Shown: positions 5,267 through 30,117 of the stretch, piece by piece
Position numbering within the stretch: the stretch's first letter is position 1
Layout of the letters: each line of letters opens with the position of its first letter
Source of the DNA: Acidobacteriaceae bacterium
GTDB lineage: Bacteria; Acidobacteriota; Terriglobia; Terriglobales; Acidobacteriaceae
DNA length: 34,156 bases
Direction of reading: 5' to 3'
Assembly (NCBI GenBank): GCA_003138955.1
Contig: PLHP01000082.1
Span: 1 to 34,156, forward strand
Notes under the pieces: model-generated
The model's input: only the letters and a program-made list of their open reading frames with translations
Told to the model about the DNA's origin: nothing
Databases searched by the model: none
Translations under genes and position numbers: made by a program

Positions 5267-6643
5267 TTGCCTAAACAGACCTCGGCAGCTGTGGCCCGTT
5301 CCTCTCCTACCCCACATGTACGCTGGTTCTCCCGCCGGCGGCTTATCGCTTTATTTTGCATGGGAGCGGCCATTGCGCTGGTCGTAATGGCTTCGGTCGG
5401 CTCGGTTGGATGGGATGCCCAGGGTTATTGGAAGGCCATTCAAGCTGTTCACCACGATTCCGATCCGTATGCTGAAGATCTTGTGGCGCTGCAGGCGTTT
5501 CACACCCGCTTGGCATCCAACCCGGCCGAGCGCCCGCCCTTTGTCTATGTCTACTCTCCGATGACGCTGCCTTTTCTGCGACTGCTGGCAGTGTTTCCTC
5601 GCTGGCTCCTGGGCCTGCTTTATTGGGCTGCGGTCGCAGCCGGAGTCCTGCTTCAGCTCTGGGCGGGATTCCAGATGGCTGATCAACGCGAACGCCGCTG
5701 GCTGGCGTTGATGCTGCCGGCCATTATCTTCTTCCCCGGACTCATCACCGACGATGCGATTTTGAGCGGCAACGTGGCCTACCCGCTTTATGGCGTAATC
5801 CTGGCCGCCGCTACCGCCGGGTGGAAACATGGCCGGTGGTCCTGGTATTACATCGCCGTTCTGGCCGCTTCAGTTTTCAAGACGCCATTTCTCGTGTTCC
5901 TCGCGTTTCCCGTTCTGATGGAGACGGGTAGGGATAGGGATAGTGGCAGTGACCGCGGCAGGCGGCAATGGGTTCCGTCCGCCATGGCAGCAATTATTGG
6001 AGTGCTGATCTTTGCCGCCCAGATCCGTCTCTGGCCCGGTTTGTTCCGCGAGTACCTGTCGAGCCTGCGATTAGTGTTTGACTACCTGCACGATTTTGGA
6101 TTCGGCCCGGCGGGCACTGTGGGCAGAGCTCTCTGGAGGCGGGGACTGCCGTCTTCTCTCGCAACCACTATTCTGCACCTGCTCGTTGTCTGTGCGCTTG
6201 CAGTTGTCCTCCTGTTGCTTGCGCGTCGCGTCCGCGAATGGAAGCTTCCGCGGGAGGCATGGGTCCCCGTCGCACTGGTCGGCACTGCCCTGTTGAACCC
6301 GCGCATCATGAAATACGATCTCGCCGCCATCACCATTCCGATGCTGCTGATCGGCGGGCGAGCGCTGCGGTTCGCTTTGGGGCGCTCAGCCGGTGAAAAC
6401 CAGGCAGCCAATTCACACGGCGCCGGCCAGAAGCGCTCCGATCGTACGCTGATTCTGGTTGCATCGGGATGTTTCCTGATCCCCAATGTCATAACAGTAG
6501 CCGGGCCATTCTGGTTTCCGGTGGAAGCCGTGATATTGCTTGCCATCTTCGCGATGGGAGTCTGGTCACTTGATCAGAGTTCTCAGGTCTCGGTTTTCAA
6601 CAAAACGTGTAGAACCGTAGAACTCGGTTTTGCTGAGAACTGA
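5267..6643 (+). CDS. GT87/DUF2029-like polytopic membrane glycosyltransferase
   Basis: TTG start; WDAQGYWKAIQAVHHDSDPYAEDL then multiple TM segments, GT87-like. The C-terminus runs into a heptamer repeat array. Confidence 0.7.
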   Translation: MPKQTSAAVARSSPTPHVRWFSRRRLIALFCMGAAIALVVMASVGSVGWDAQGYWKAIQAVHHDSDPYAEDLVALQAFHTRLASNPAERPPFVYVYSPMTLPFLRLLAVFPRWLLGLLYWAAVAAGVLLQLWAGFQMADQRERRWLALMLPAIIFFPGLITDDAILSGNVAYPLYGVILAAATAGWKHGRWSWYYIAVLAASVFKTPFLVFLAFPVLMETGRDRDSGSDRGRRQWVPSAMAAIIGVLIFAAQIRLWPGLFREYLSSLRLVFDYLHDFGFGPAGTVGRALWRRGLPSSLATTILHLLVVCALAVVLLLLARRVREWKLPREAWVPVALVGTALLNPRIMKYDLAAITIPMLLIGGRALRFALGRSAGENQAANSHGAGQKRSDRTLILVASGCFLIPNVITVAGPFWFPVEAVILLAIFAMGVWSLDQSSQVSVFNKTCRTVELGFAEN

Positions 6644-6702
6644 GAACTGAGAACTGCGAACTAATAGCTGAGAACTGGCAACCGACAACCGGCAACTGGC
6701 AA
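6633..6702 (+). repeat. Heptamer array A, 10 units (consensus ctgagaa/ctggcaa)
   Basis: Read directly: ctgagaa ctgagaa ctgagaa ctgcgaa ctaatag ctgagaa ctggcaa ccgacaa ccggcaa ctggcaa. An inverted arm agttctcag lies at 6578-6586. Confidence 0.9.
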
Positions 6703-6735
6703 CTGATTTTCGCCCACGCTGTAGAATAGGAACAC

Positions 6736-9845: not shown

Positions 9846-9857
9846 GAGCGACAAATC

Positions 9858-9966
9858 TTTAACGCAGAGGACGCTGAGAAAATCTTTAACGCAGAGAACG
9901 CTGAGCAGAGAACGCTGAGCGCGCAGAGGTTTTAGAGATTCTTTTTTCCGCGTCCTCTGCGTTAAA
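9858..9966. repeat. Inverted/direct repeat element between convergent genes, possible bidirectional terminator
   Basis: Perfect 17-bp inverted repeat tttaacgcagaggacgc (9858-9874) / gcgtcctctgcgttaaa (9950-9966). Internal direct copies of tttaacgcagaRacgctgag and cagagaacgctgag. Confidence 0.85.
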
Positions 9967-21559: not shown

Positions 21560-22561
21560 GTGCGCACGGATTCGGATTCAACAGACATCCCCGAGTGGGG
21601 TGGGCATGGAGCGGTTGGCCATGTCCCGGTTCTTTTAAAAGAAGCGATCGATTTTCTGGCCGTAAAGCGTGGCGGAACTTATCTGGATGCCACGGTGGGC
21701 TTGGGCGGGCACAGTTACGAAATCGCAAGACGCCTCGGCGCACTGGGACATTTGATTGGCTTCGATAAGGATGCGGCGGCGCTGGAGAGGGCGAGGGAAA
21801 GGCTAAAGGCGGTCGATAGTCGTTCGTCGTTGGTCGCTAGCGAGCCAATTTCCGAACGACCAACGACTGACGACCAACGACTGCAGTTGGATTGGCCGCA
21901 GATCACGCTGATTCATGGGTCGTTTGCTGAAGTTGGTGAGCGCGTTGCTCCGGCTTCTTTGGACGGTTTGCTGGCGGATCTGGGGGTTAGCAGTTTGCAG
22001 CTCTCGGATCCGGCGCGGGGATTTAGTTTTCAGGCGGAAGGACCGCTGGACATGCGGATGAACGCGATGTCCGGCGAAACCGCCGAACAAGTGGTAAACC
22101 ACATCGACGAGCGCGAGCTGGCCGATGTGATTTACGAATTCGGTGAGGAAAGGAGGTCGCGGAGAATCGCCAGAGCCATTGTCCGGTCGCGGCCGATACG
22201 CACGACGATGCAACTTGTCGAGGTGGTAGCGGCCGCGGCCCGGTCAATGAACTGGAAACATGAGCGAATTCATCCGGCGACGCGAACCTTTCAAGCTCTC
22301 CGAATATTCGTAAACCGTGAACTGGACGATCTGAAAGCACTGTTGGAGGCGGCGCCTAGCGTGCTGAAGCCGGGCGGAAGGCTGGTGGTGATCAGCTTTC
22401 ATTCGCTCGAAGACAGAATCGTCAAGGATGCGCTTCGCGAGGGTGCGAAGCAGGGCTGCTACCGGCTGCTGACCAAGAAGCCGGTGACGGCGGGCGGGGA
22501 AGAGATAGATCGCAATCCGCGGTCGCGCAGCGCCAAGATGCGGGCGGCCGAAAAAGTTTGA
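21560..22561 (+). CDS. rsmH: 16S rRNA m4C1402 methyltransferase
   Basis: GHVPVLLKEAIDFL, YLDATVGLGGHSYEIARRLG, GLLADLGVSSLQLSDPARGFSFQAEGPLDMRMN, HPATRTFQALRIFVNRELDDL, RSRSAKMRAAEKV. Confidence 0.96.
   Translation: MRTDSDSTDIPEWGGHGAVGHVPVLLKEAIDFLAVKRGGTYLDATVGLGGHSYEIARRLGALGHLIGFDKDAAALERARERLKAVDSRSSLVASEPISERPTTDDQRLQLDWPQITLIHGSFAEVGERVAPASLDGLLADLGVSSLQLSDPARGFSFQAEGPLDMRMNAMSGETAEQVVNHIDERELADVIYEFGEERRSRRIARAIVRSRPIRTTMQLVEVVAAAARSMNWKHERIHPATRTFQALRIFVNRELDDLKALLEAAPSVLKPGGRLVVISFHSLEDRIVKDALREGAKQGCYRLLTKKPVTAGGEEIDRNPRSRSAKMRAAEKV
21812..21883 (+). repeat. Inverted heptamer array inside rsmH
   Basis: Left arm gtcgata gtcgttc gtcgttg gtcgcta (21812-21839). Right arm gaacgac caacgac tgacgac caacgac (21854-21881). 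Confidence 0.8.
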
Positions 22562-22907: not shown

Positions 22908-23366
22908 ATGAGCGCCTTGGCCATGCAAAGCGCAGCTCCTCTCAGCCGGCGGAAGTCCTGTTGGCTGGGGACCCCGGAAATTTATTTCCGCAAGACCATC
23001 GATAATTCGCGGCTGGTCAAGGTCGAAGATCCGCGGCGCGCGCGGGAGATGAAATATTTCGGACTTGCGCTCGGTTGCCTGTTCCTGCTGGTGATGGGAT
23101 TCGCGCTGCAACATTTCCGCGCAATTGAGTACGGGTACAAGATCGAGGCGCTGCGGTCGGAGCGCGAGGGTCTCACGGAAATGAACCGTGCCCTGCGGCT
23201 GGAAGAGGCGTCGCTGCGCGATCCGGAGCGAATTGATGTGATGGCGCGCAAGCTCGGCCTGCAATCGCCGCAGCCCGGGCAAGTGCTCCGCATGGACGCG
23301 GCCAGCGATGCGGCTACGCCGGTGATGGCCAGCGTGGCTCCGGTCGCCGTGGTATCGGCGCGGTAA
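22908..23366 (+). CDS. ftsL: Cell division protein FtsL-like
   Basis: dcw position; single TM (FGLALGCLFLLVMGFALQHF), coiled-coil segment, then DPERIDVMARKLGLQSPQPGQVLRM. Confidence 0.82.
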   Translation: MSALAMQSAAPLSRRKSCWLGTPEIYFRKTIDNSRLVKVEDPRRAREMKYFGLALGCLFLLVMGFALQHFRAIEYGYKIEALRSEREGLTEMNRALRLEEASLRDPERIDVMARKLGLQSPQPGQVLRMDAASDAATPVMASVAPVAVVSAR

Positions 23367-23368
23367 AT

Positions 23369-23455
23369 CAGTTCTCAGTTCCCAGTTCTCAGTTCTCAGT
23401 CAGGAGCCGTGAGTTTTTCACTGAGAATTGAGAACTGAGAACTGGGAACTGAAAT
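23369..23455. repeat. Inverted heptamer array C (hairpin-forming) between ftsL and ftsI
   Basis: Left: cagttct cagttcc cagttct cagttct cagt. Right: ctgagaa ttgagaa ctgagaa ctgggaa ctg. Arms are about 29/32 complementary; the loop is caggagccgtgagtttttc. Confidence 0.9.
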
Positions 23456-25682
23456 GGCGGCATCCACCTCTTCGAACGGCGCAAAATTCAGGCTCTACGC
23501 CTTGTCTGGATTGCTTTGCTTCTGGCTGCTGGCCATCTGCCTGCGCCTGGTTTATCTGCAAATCTTCTGCTACGGCGATTTCGAGCGGCGCGCGCAGCAT
23601 CAACAACAACGCAGTTTCGATCTCTCGCCTAAACGCGGCGTCATCTACGATCGCGCTGGGCGGGAACTGGCTATGTCCATTCAGGTGGACTCGGCTTTCG
23701 TGGTGCCATCGGAAACTCCCGACCTTGCTAATGCTATTAGCCTGATTGCGCGCATTACGCAGGACGATCCTCGCGTCCTGCTGGCTGACTGCGGCGCGCA
23801 CAAGACTTTTTGCTGGGTGGCACGCAAGGCCGACGCCGAAGCGATTGAGCGCATCCGCGCGCTGAATTTGCAAGGCATCCACTACCAGAAAGAACCCAAG
23901 CGCTTTTATCCGAAGCGGGAACTGGCGGCGCAAATTCTGGGCTACGTGGGCACCGACGATCAGGGACTGAGCGGACTGGAGAGACAATTCAACCAGCAAC
24001 TGCAGGGCAAGCCGGGCAAGCTGATGATTTCCGTCGACGCGCGCAAGCGCTGGTTTGCCAGTGTAGAAAAGGAGCCCGAAGCGGGCAACAGCGTCGTCCT
24101 CACCATCGATCAGAACATCCAGTACATTGCCGAACGGGAACTGGAGCGCGGGATGGAAGAGACGCACGCCATTGCGGGCACGGCGATCGTGGAAAATCCT
24201 CGCACTGGCGAGATTCTGGCTCTCACCAACCGGCCCACGTTCAATCCGAATATTCGTAAGGAAATTAAGAACGACGCGCTGAAAGACCGCGCCGTCAGCG
24301 ACATCTACGAGCCCGGCTCGACTTTCAAGATGGTGACTATCTCGGCCGGTCTGGAAGAGAAGATTACGCGGCCCGACGAAATGTTCGACTGCCAGATGGG
24401 ATCGATTGTGATCAATGGCATGCGCATCCGCGACAGCAGGCCGCACGGTCTGCTCTCGGTCGCGGACATTATTGCGGAATCGAGCGACGTCGGCGCCATC
24501 AAAGTCGCGCTGCGGCTCGGCGACGAGCGGCTCTACAAATACATTCGGGCCTTCGGATTCGGTCAGCGGACGGGGATCGAGCTGCCGAGCGAAACGGCCG
24601 GGCTGACGAAGCCGGTGGAACGGTGGTCGAAGGTTTCCATTGGCGCGATCTCGATGGGGCAGGAGATTGGCATCTCGCCGTTGCAGCTGGCTTCGTTGAT
24701 TTCGACGATTGCGAACGGCGGGGTGCGCGTCCCGGCGCGCATCGTTGCCGGGACGATCGCGGCCGGGACGATCGCGGCTGGGACGATTGCGCCCCAGAAT
24801 ACTCCACAAACGATCGTGTTTCAGCCTGCCGCGGGGACGCGGGTGATTTCAGCTCTGACCGCAGCCGAGATGCGACAGATGTTGCAGGGGGTGGTGCTCC
24901 ACGGCACCGGACGCAAAGCTATTCTCGAGGGCTACAGTTCGGCGGGCAAAACCGGGACGGCTCAGAAGGTGGACCCCGCCACCGGCGCTTACTCGAAGAC
25001 GAAGTATGTCGCGTCTTTTGCCGGATTTGCTCCCATCAACGATCCGCAAATCGCAGTGGTGGTGATCCTGGACTCTGCGGTCGGCTTGCACCAGGGAGGC
25101 CAGGTTTCGGCTCCGGTCTTTCAGCGGATCACGCAGCAGGTGCTGGAGTATCTGCACGTTCCGCATGACGTTCAGCTTCCGCCCAGCCGCCAGGTGTTGC
25201 TGGCTCGCCGCGATGTTCCCGACGCTAGTCTGGAAGAAAGCTCGCCCGATCACCTCGGGGCCAGCCTGGATATGGCCGAGGCCAATGAGGGGCCCGTTAT
25301 GCCAGCCGCGGTCAAGCCCGGCGCGATTGGAGCCCAGGTGGTTCCTGCCGCGATGACCGCTAGAGATGCGGATCACCAGGCGGTGGGCAGCTTGACGACA
25401 GCGGCCGCGAGTTCGGCCGGTGCACTTTCATCTGTCACACGATCTGAGAATTCACCCGCGCAGAAATCGCCGACCAGTGGAACGGTGGTGCTCGACGTGG
25501 AAGAGGGAGGGATCGCGGTTCCTTCCTTCCTTGGCAAGAATCTGCGGGTTGCGATTGAGGCGGCGCAGGATGCCGGGCTCGACCTCGACGCCATCGGCAG
25601 CGGCGTTGCCCGCGAGCAAACGCCTCTGCCCGGTGCGCACGTGGCGGCGGGGTCGCGGGTGGTGGTGAAGTTTGGAAGGTGA
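23454..25682 (+). CDS. ftsI: FtsI-type penicillin-binding protein with C-terminal PASTA domain
   Basis: GSTFKMV (SxxK), AESSDVG, AGKTGTAQKVD; C-terminal IAVPSFLGKNLRVAIEAAQDAGLDLDAIGSGVAREQTPLPGAHVAAGSRVVVKF. Confidence 0.95.
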   Translation: MAASTSSNGAKFRLYALSGLLCFWLLAICLRLVYLQIFCYGDFERRAQHQQQRSFDLSPKRGVIYDRAGRELAMSIQVDSAFVVPSETPDLANAISLIARITQDDPRVLLADCGAHKTFCWVARKADAEAIERIRALNLQGIHYQKEPKRFYPKRELAAQILGYVGTDDQGLSGLERQFNQQLQGKPGKLMISVDARKRWFASVEKEPEAGNSVVLTIDQNIQYIAERELERGMEETHAIAGTAIVENPRTGEILALTNRPTFNPNIRKEIKNDALKDRAVSDIYEPGSTFKMVTISAGLEEKITRPDEMFDCQMGSIVINGMRIRDSRPHGLLSVADIIAESSDVGAIKVALRLGDERLYKYIRAFGFGQRTGIELPSETAGLTKPVERWSKVSIGAISMGQEIGISPLQLASLISTIANGGVRVPARIVAGTIAAGTIAAGTIAPQNTPQTIVFQPAAGTRVISALTAAEMRQMLQGVVLHGTGRKAILEGYSSAGKTGTAQKVDPATGAYSKTKYVASFAGFAPINDPQIAVVVILDSAVGLHQGGQVSAPVFQRITQQVLEYLHVPHDVQLPPSRQVLLARRDVPDASLEESSPDHLGASLDMAEANEGPVMPAAVKPGAIGAQVVPAAMTARDADHQAVGSLTTAAASSAGALSSVTRSENSPAQKSPTSGTVVLDVEEGGIAVPSFLGKNLRVAIEAAQDAGLDLDAIGSGVAREQTPLPGAHVAAGSRVVVKFGR
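24747..24791 (+). repeat. 15-bp in-frame tandem repeat in ftsI, 3 units encoding AGTIA
   Basis: gccgggacgatcgcg gccgggacgatcgcg gctgggacgattgcg. Confidence 0.93.
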
Positions 25683-28739: not shown

Positions 28740-28815
28740 GTGTCCGAAGAAAAGCTTGAACCACAGAGGACACAGGGGTCCACAGAGGACCACCGGGTAC
28801 CTAATCAGAGTTTCC
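28725..28815. repeat. Inverted-repeat element straddling the murF stop codon
   Basis: Perfect 14-bp arms ggaaactctgatta (28725-28738) / taatcagagtttcc (28802-28815). Loop holds two copies of ccacagagga (28761-28770, 28780-28789). Confidence 0.85.
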
Positions 28816-28834: not shown

Positions 28835-28862
28835 CTGAGAGCTGACAGCTGAGAGCTGACAG
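28835..28862 (+). repeat. Heptamer array D, 4 units, upstream of mraY
   Basis: ctgagag ctgacag ctgagag ctgacag. Confidence 0.9.
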
Positions 28863-28879
28863 CTGGTGTCGGAGGCGGA

Positions 28880-30013: not shown

Positions 30014-30019
30014 GAAAAT

Positions 30020-30107
30020 TTGTAATTGGTAATTTGTAATTGGTAATTTGAAGACTCAAGACCAATTGGTACTGGAACGGTTTTAAATTACAAATTACCA
30101 ATTACCA
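30020..30107. repeat. Inverted heptamer array E between mraY and murD
   Basis: Left: ttgtaat tggtaat ttgtaat tggtaat (30020-30047). Right: attacaa attacca attacca (30087-30107). Confidence 0.9.
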
Positions 30108-30117
30108 ATTGAACTTG

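Follow-up and report, generated by a model that had tools for sequence, protein, structure and literature searches.

A dispersed heptad-armed palindrome has probably taken over the leader of the essential cell-division gene ftsI in a Terriglobales genus

In the stretch of 34,156 nucleotides of acidobacterial DNA analysed here (the window), a palindrome built of 7-nt units lies directly in front of ftsI. Did this array evolve at ftsI to control ftsI, or did it come from elsewhere in the genome? And what would it do to the translation of a gene that the cell cannot divide without? The array lies among rsmH, ftsL, ftsI, murE, murF, mraY, murD and ftsW. The host genome is a 4.6-Mb draft (85% complete), and the named relatives with which we compare it are Acidobacteriaceae/Terriglobales metagenome-assembled genomes.

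The upstream gene, ftsL (22908-23366, + strand), is identified by its place in the dcw cluster, where it lies between rsmH and ftsI, and by a match to the NCBIfam model ftsL_broad (E 5.4e-7, below the curated cut-off). Its stop codon TAA occupies 23364-23366. One nucleotide further on, the left arm of the palindrome begins (23368-23400, + strand). This arm consists of TCAGTTC units and includes a 31-nt arm, AGTTCTCAGTTCCCAGTTCTCAGTTCTCAGT, of which the genome has further, dispersed copies. It is followed by the loop or core CAGGAGCCGTGAGTTTTTC (23401-23419, unstranded) and by the right arm, whose ACTGAGA units are complementary to the left arm (23420-23452, + strand). Again a single nucleotide separates the end of the right arm from the ATG of ftsI (23454-23456). 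ftsI itself (23454-25682, + strand) encodes the class B penicillin-binding protein of the dcw cluster; in the congeners it is 75-94% identical and found in the same place. The arms of the palindrome fill the whole gap between the two genes.

Both arms are period-7 tandem arrays of 33 nt, flanking a 19-nt loop. They are 91% complementary, which agrees with the 29 of 32 positions reported in the initial annotation of this locus. When the arms are shifted by 7 nt, that is by one unit, 24 of 24 nt pair. The annotation had placed a strong hairpin over the ftsI start and suggested RNA folding as a check, and folding bears it out. The RNA from 23340 to 23480 folds with -75.1 kcal/mol, compared to -40.7 ± 4.1 kcal/mol for shuffles (z = -8.4). 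The palindrome forms a single stem, and none of 200 shuffles was equally stable.

The same annotation took a GGGA inside the stem for the only sequence resembling a Shine-Dalgarno (SD) motif. This GGGA (23444-23447, + strand) lies in the penultimate unit of the right arm, 6 nt 5' of the ATG, and it is the only well-placed SD-like string. However, AGGAG also occurs, in the loop (23402-23406), 47 nt from the ftsI ATG. No promoter and, on the + strand, no terminator-like site were found at the array. An intrinsic terminator consists of a GC-rich stem and a T run; here the right arm is followed by AAATGG. Searches of Rfam with the array gave no credible match, only sub-threshold microRNA models, which score any long hairpin, and no Rfam family was found in two relatives.

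Where does the palindrome come from? The array at ftsI is one copy of a dispersed palindrome of about 85 bp with heptad arms, which is common in this Terriglobales genus. A BLAST search with the ftsI element yields 67 matches in its own genome at E ≤ 0.001 and 38 at 1e-6, where both strands of the palindrome are scored separately. All 24 genomes of the genus have matches. In the own genome, the 31-nt left arm, AGTTCTCAGTTCCCRGTTCTCAGTTCTCAGT, is present in exact form at 8 loci and its reversed control at none. With up to two mismatches, the arm is present in only 6 of 297 genomes of the phylum. Hence the element is largely confined to this genus and some of its relatives.

The copies resemble each other in their internal order. 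An unbiased pattern scan, in which a CCC variant was allowed in any unit, found 17 arms in the own genome. A single CCC unit is present in 11 of these, as the second unit in 10 cases. Since the variant arms share this position, they look like copies of one template. Sixteen copies that we read with their flanks start with CAGTTCTCAG-like arms and end with the complement; an exact loop conserved across all copies was not found. Fresh slippage as the source of the arrays of the CAGTTCT family is disfavoured, because the order of variant units is common to different loci.

At ftsI, the loop occurs in both orientations. In this genome (G000), G018 and G022 it is similar; G011 and G023 have it in inverted form. 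When the loops of this genome and G011 are compared, the inverted score is 13 versus 3, and none of 1000 shuffles scores as high. Arm recombination, or insertion in either orientation, would explain both loop orientations. The copy number suggests that the element is mobile. We infer that it spread for its own reasons and was not selected for ftsI. Alternatively, the array could have been selected for instead of spreading by itself.

Heptad arrays are frequent in this genome beyond the family found at ftsI. In a sample of 129 kb, 7 is the commonest short period, with five arrays of period 7 and two of period 14; there were none with periods of 4-6, 8-11 or 13. Across 612 kb there are 33 period-7 arrays, 12 of them palindromic, and 7 of the 33 lie in predicted coding sequence. 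Genome-wide counts are based on pattern and BLAST searches together with about 612 kb of the own genome and 800 kb of G014.

What does the ftsL-ftsI gap contain when the array is missing? The junction holds the heptad palindrome in 8 of 20 congeners (the own genome included) and a GC hairpin in the remaining 12. This second type has the form CGGCGGCTC-loop-GGGCCGCCG, lies 20-21 nt before ftsI and is followed by GAAAGTTTCTGAGGACTGGAA-GTG or a variant of it. Its exact pattern was matched in 7 genomes, with one copy each and solely at ftsI. Other genera of the family have TGGCGGCTCCC-loop-GGGCCGCCATGTTTGTCTAAGG-like hairpins in the same gap. In relatives such as L029 and L114, this single-copy hairpin of the ftsL-ftsI gap, conserved throughout the family, reads TGGCGGCTC-loop-GGGCCGCCATGTTTGTCTRAGG; it is absent from the window.

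Covariation points to a conserved RNA structure. We aligned 29 hairpin sequences, two of which (G006, missed, and G071, where another stem was chosen) were set by hand after a home-made stretch search. In this alignment 95.4% of cells are paired, and 13 cells changed on both sides (shuffled mean 5.0). The covariation score is 0.225 compared to 0.160 ± 0.016 after shuffling, with none of 500 shuffles as high and a maximum of 0.078 in slid controls; the structure was drawn from the same 29 sequences that were scored, so independent genomes were needed. When a covariance model was run on 42 genomes outside the training set, its top 10 matches all fell in the ftsL-ftsI gap, as did 12 of the best 15. 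Within the genus, the 12 GC-type ftsI leaders were matched at 37-48 bits. The covariance-model search of this genome found no copy of the hairpin. A second strong match of the leader model (34 bits) was observed at G005:C430:13278-13333, about 290 nt before a weak match to the FtsI N-terminus; this is perhaps a second or partial ftsI locus.

On the ftsI tree, the array state changes 6 times and clusters no more than expected by chance. Hence the array was gained, lost or exchanged several times. The GC hairpin is common to other genera and the array is not, so that replacement of the hairpin by the array is the simplest reading. The array probably replaced an ancestral leader hairpin, a direction that we infer from this distribution.

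Such a replacement would change the surroundings of the ftsI start. In the GC-type species, the hairpin leaves the SD (GAGGA or similar) outside, and in most of them 6 nt separate it from GTG. In contrast, 6 of the 8 array species have GGGA within the stem, in the variant unit CTGGGAA, 6 nt before ATG. The spacing of GGGA to the start equals that of GAGGA in the relatives without an array. As an equilibrium estimate, opening the region from -17 to +3 is predicted to cost 12.7-30.1 kcal/mol in 7 array species and 3.1-14.2 kcal/mol in 12 others. In the array species G023, the stem is weaker (z -3.9) and the SD more accessible. The initial annotation's idea that the repeat provides or sequesters the ribosome-binding site is thereby supported in part: the stem holds GGGA, and the modelled accessibility is far lower in most array species than in their sisters.

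The predicted cost also depends on the upstream gene. If a ribosome on the ftsL stop is modelled by masking the RNA to +15, the equilibrium opening cost in array species decreases by 3-19 kcal/mol, to 7.8-15.5 kcal/mol. In non-array species, the same masking shifts it by less than 4 kcal/mol in either direction. For this species, the predicted cost falls from 30.1 to 15.5 kcal/mol.

To explain these observations, we propose that a dispersed palindrome, two heptad arms of about 31 nt with a short core, was inserted at the ftsL-ftsI gap or recombined into it. There, an older GC-rich leader hairpin, present in single copy and conserved throughout the family, would have given way to it. The SD would now come from the variant unit CTGGGAA, in place of CTGAGAA; it would keep its ancestral distance from the start but lie inside the stem. 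In free mRNA, the stem would hide both the SD and the ftsI start codon. When a ribosome terminates at the ftsL stop codon, 1 nt 5' of the left arm, it would cover or melt the outer units that pair with the SD. ftsI would then be translated mainly just after ftsL translation, that is, by translational coupling through RNA unfolding.

On balance, we consider it probable that a dispersed palindrome took over the ftsI leader, replaced the GC hairpin and imposes coupling to ftsL, which is the best explanation of the locus. Judged by the modelled opening costs, the array probably ties ftsI translation to ftsL translation. We do not favour the annotation's suggestion that the array may separate the expression of ftsL and ftsI, since its geometry points to coupling with ftsL translation and no terminator was found there. 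In the RNA-unfolding model of coupling, the ribosome translating the upstream gene opens a stem over the downstream SD (PMC12548453). Known cases are individual gene pairs, whereas the ftsI stem would derive from a dispersed repeat. In a screen, as cited in that review, structure just after the upstream stop lowers coupling (PMC12548453), so that the effect of the ftsI stem may run in either direction.

Does the palindrome have to affect ftsI at all? It may be a neutral passenger that sits in a tolerant operon gap and does not appreciably affect ftsI, if ribosomes and helicases melt the stem. The SD match in the last unit would then be due to chance or to minimal compensation. Such indifference would suit an element that is identical in kind at dozens of loci, is scattered on the tree and, as an array, lies in predicted coding sequence in 7 of 33 sampled cases. 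One of the arrays in the window is found inside rsmH: a palindromic heptad array (GTCGTTR ... ACGACCA; 21812-21883, unstranded) within the reading frame, where it is read as extra residues. At the same site, congeners have in-frame palindromic heptad arrays of differing unit families, or none (for example, G020, G016 and G021). Heptad arrays in the rsmH frame cannot act as ribosome-binding devices. However, a passenger does not account well for the variant unit with the SD-like GGGA, which 6 of the 8 array species have at the spacing of the ancestral SD. Neither does it explain why the usual outermost unit of the element is missing exactly at the ftsI SD site, or why the predicted SD accessibility differs so strongly. 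Hence we think a purely neutral role unlikely, though it deserves consideration.

A second junction of the operon raises a different possibility. The mraY-murD gap is filled by another palindromic heptad array, of AATTTGT/AATTGGT units (30017-30110, unstranded). In 13 of the 14 congeners with a readable gap, this spacer is about 60 nt or longer and mostly palindrome. The palindromes belong to at least two unrelated families: AATTTGT/AATTGGT heptads and CACCACGGAGACACGGAG palindromes, with one nested case (G018). Strong folds (z about -3 or lower) occur at ftsL-ftsI in 15 of 19 cases, with unrelated sequences, and at mraY-murD in 11 of 15. In the control gaps they are rare (murF-mraY 2/17, ftsI-murE 3/15).

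Thus certain stop-start pairs might need a hairpin for which any palindrome serves, so that families turn over and the hairpin stays. Such a bridge could join stop and start, protect the transcript or prevent Rho entry. At certain dcw junctions of the family, the ancestral hairpin and unrelated palindromes would then be interchangeable, and repeats would supply coupling structures of free sequence. The stem of the Nostoc trnL intron, in which repeats replace each other, is a published parallel (PMC4476775). Where palindromic arrays lie in co-directional gaps of this genome, the median length of the remaining spacer is 68 nt. This residual spacer is smaller than expected if arrays were placed in proportion to gap length (P 0.0001), but compared to unweighted gaps the difference is only suggestive (P about 0.08). 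The position bias of arrays relative to gene starts and stops was determined with a simple home-made gene caller, and its figures are indicative only. Yet the mraY-murD gap of G021 is nearly empty (15 nt). Moreover, an insertion hot spot combined with purifying selection elsewhere gives the same picture; the turnover at the junctions fits both this and selection for replaceable hairpins. We therefore regard a general need for bridging hairpins as doubtful, slightly more so than a neutral passenger.

That the heptad array evolved at ftsI as a dedicated riboregulator or attenuator of this gene is very improbable, as the strong fold over start codon and SD is outweighed by an element that is dispersed, missing at ftsI in most congeners, present there with its loop in both orientations, and without a terminator-like site on the + strand or a credible Rfam match. 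The annotation had read the array as such a device. Twelve of the 20 congeners lack it at ftsI, those that have it are scattered over the ftsI tree, and relatives carry a different, conserved hairpin in its place. A variable and often absent array in close relatives had been named in the annotation as evidence against its own reading, and as regards presence this is what we find.

For an essential cell-division gene, the locus offers a natural experiment. The surrounding genes are the same in sister species, but the leader is of two types: either the hairpin is the conserved one and the SD is open, or the hairpin derives from the repeat and the SD is predicted to be buried. With this contrast, one can test whether translation control of an operon can pass to a dispersed repeat. 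The family-wide RNA hairpin between ftsL and ftsI appears to be undescribed, with no Rfam match and no paper found in the open-licence literature. The heptad-armed Terriglobales palindrome family, which enters operon gaps and, in frame, the rsmH coding sequence, appears to be undescribed as well; we found no description of an acidobacterial heptamer or palindromic repeat family in the open-licence literature.

Similar repeats are known from other bacteria. The P6b repeats of Nostoc are heptamers (short tandemly repeated repetitive sequences, STRR), and related heptamers are dispersed in cyanobacterial genomes. The acidobacterial arrays, too, are tandem 7-nt units dispersed in the genome, with period 7 enriched (33 arrays in 612 kb). 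Two repeat classes account for all P6b stem-loops of the Nostoc trnL intron, and replacement of one by the other has occurred repeatedly (PMC4476775). This is the closest published parallel, a stem-loop of repeat motifs that is kept while the repeat class is exchanged. The ftsI array differs in phylum and unit sequences, and it lies at an mRNA start site rather than in a self-splicing intron. Its dispersed copy is a pair of 31-nt arms of fixed order with a core.

In marine Beggiatoaceae, TAACTGA heptamers lie just 5' of start codons and overlap the expected SD (MacGregor, PMC4679880). Translational regulation has been proposed for them and possible mobility discussed. They form 169 sets of direct repeats and one inverted pair, with a single unit of little SD character (PMC4679880). 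In contrast, the ftsI arms are inverted repeats that fold into a strong hairpin and include GGGA, and their units are CTGAGAA and CTGGGAA instead of direct TAACTGA repeats.

Like REP elements and MITEs, the acidobacterial element is a short, dispersed, intergenic palindrome without coding capacity, but its arms are heptad-periodic. REP elements are palindromes of 20-40 bp with a GTAG or CGTC tag; by eye, the 16 copies have no such constant end. The element shares some features with MITEs (terminal inverted repeats of 15-30 bp, noncoding, multicopy), with arms of about 31 nt, a length of about 85 bp and dozens of copies. MITEs are transcribed and influence neighbouring genes through RNA structure (PMC3733652). 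Rickettsial palindromic elements, in the description cited here, insert in frame within the reading frames of proteins that are likely functional (PMC3733652). By that description they resemble the heptad array in rsmH, a palindromic repeat in frame within a gene, whereas the acidobacterial elements are mostly intergenic and built of heptads.

The window contains further repeats. A heptad array of CTGAGAA and then AACTGGC units is intergenic (6633-6705, + strand). A single-arm array (CTGAGAG CTGACAG; 28835-28865, + strand) lies just 5' of mraY and is retained in most congeners; it is absent or nearly so in G023, G016, G006 and G014. Just 3' of it, before the mraY start, is a conserved GGAGGCGGA. 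Most congeners have a conserved TATAATCACTCCAATG in the ftsI-murE gap, just before 25765; it abuts the start of murE, in the manner of a -10 box for a murE transcript without a leader. Other repeats that look dispersed are AACGCAGAGAACGCTGAG and ACCACAGAGGACACAG-like units at 9853-9920 and 28760-28793, and the ACCACAGAGGACACAG-like type also forms palindromes in relatives. By eye, the polarity of palindromic arrays looks constant, with the GTY-type arm first (TTCTCAG, GTCGTTR, AGGTCTC) and the RAC-type arm second.
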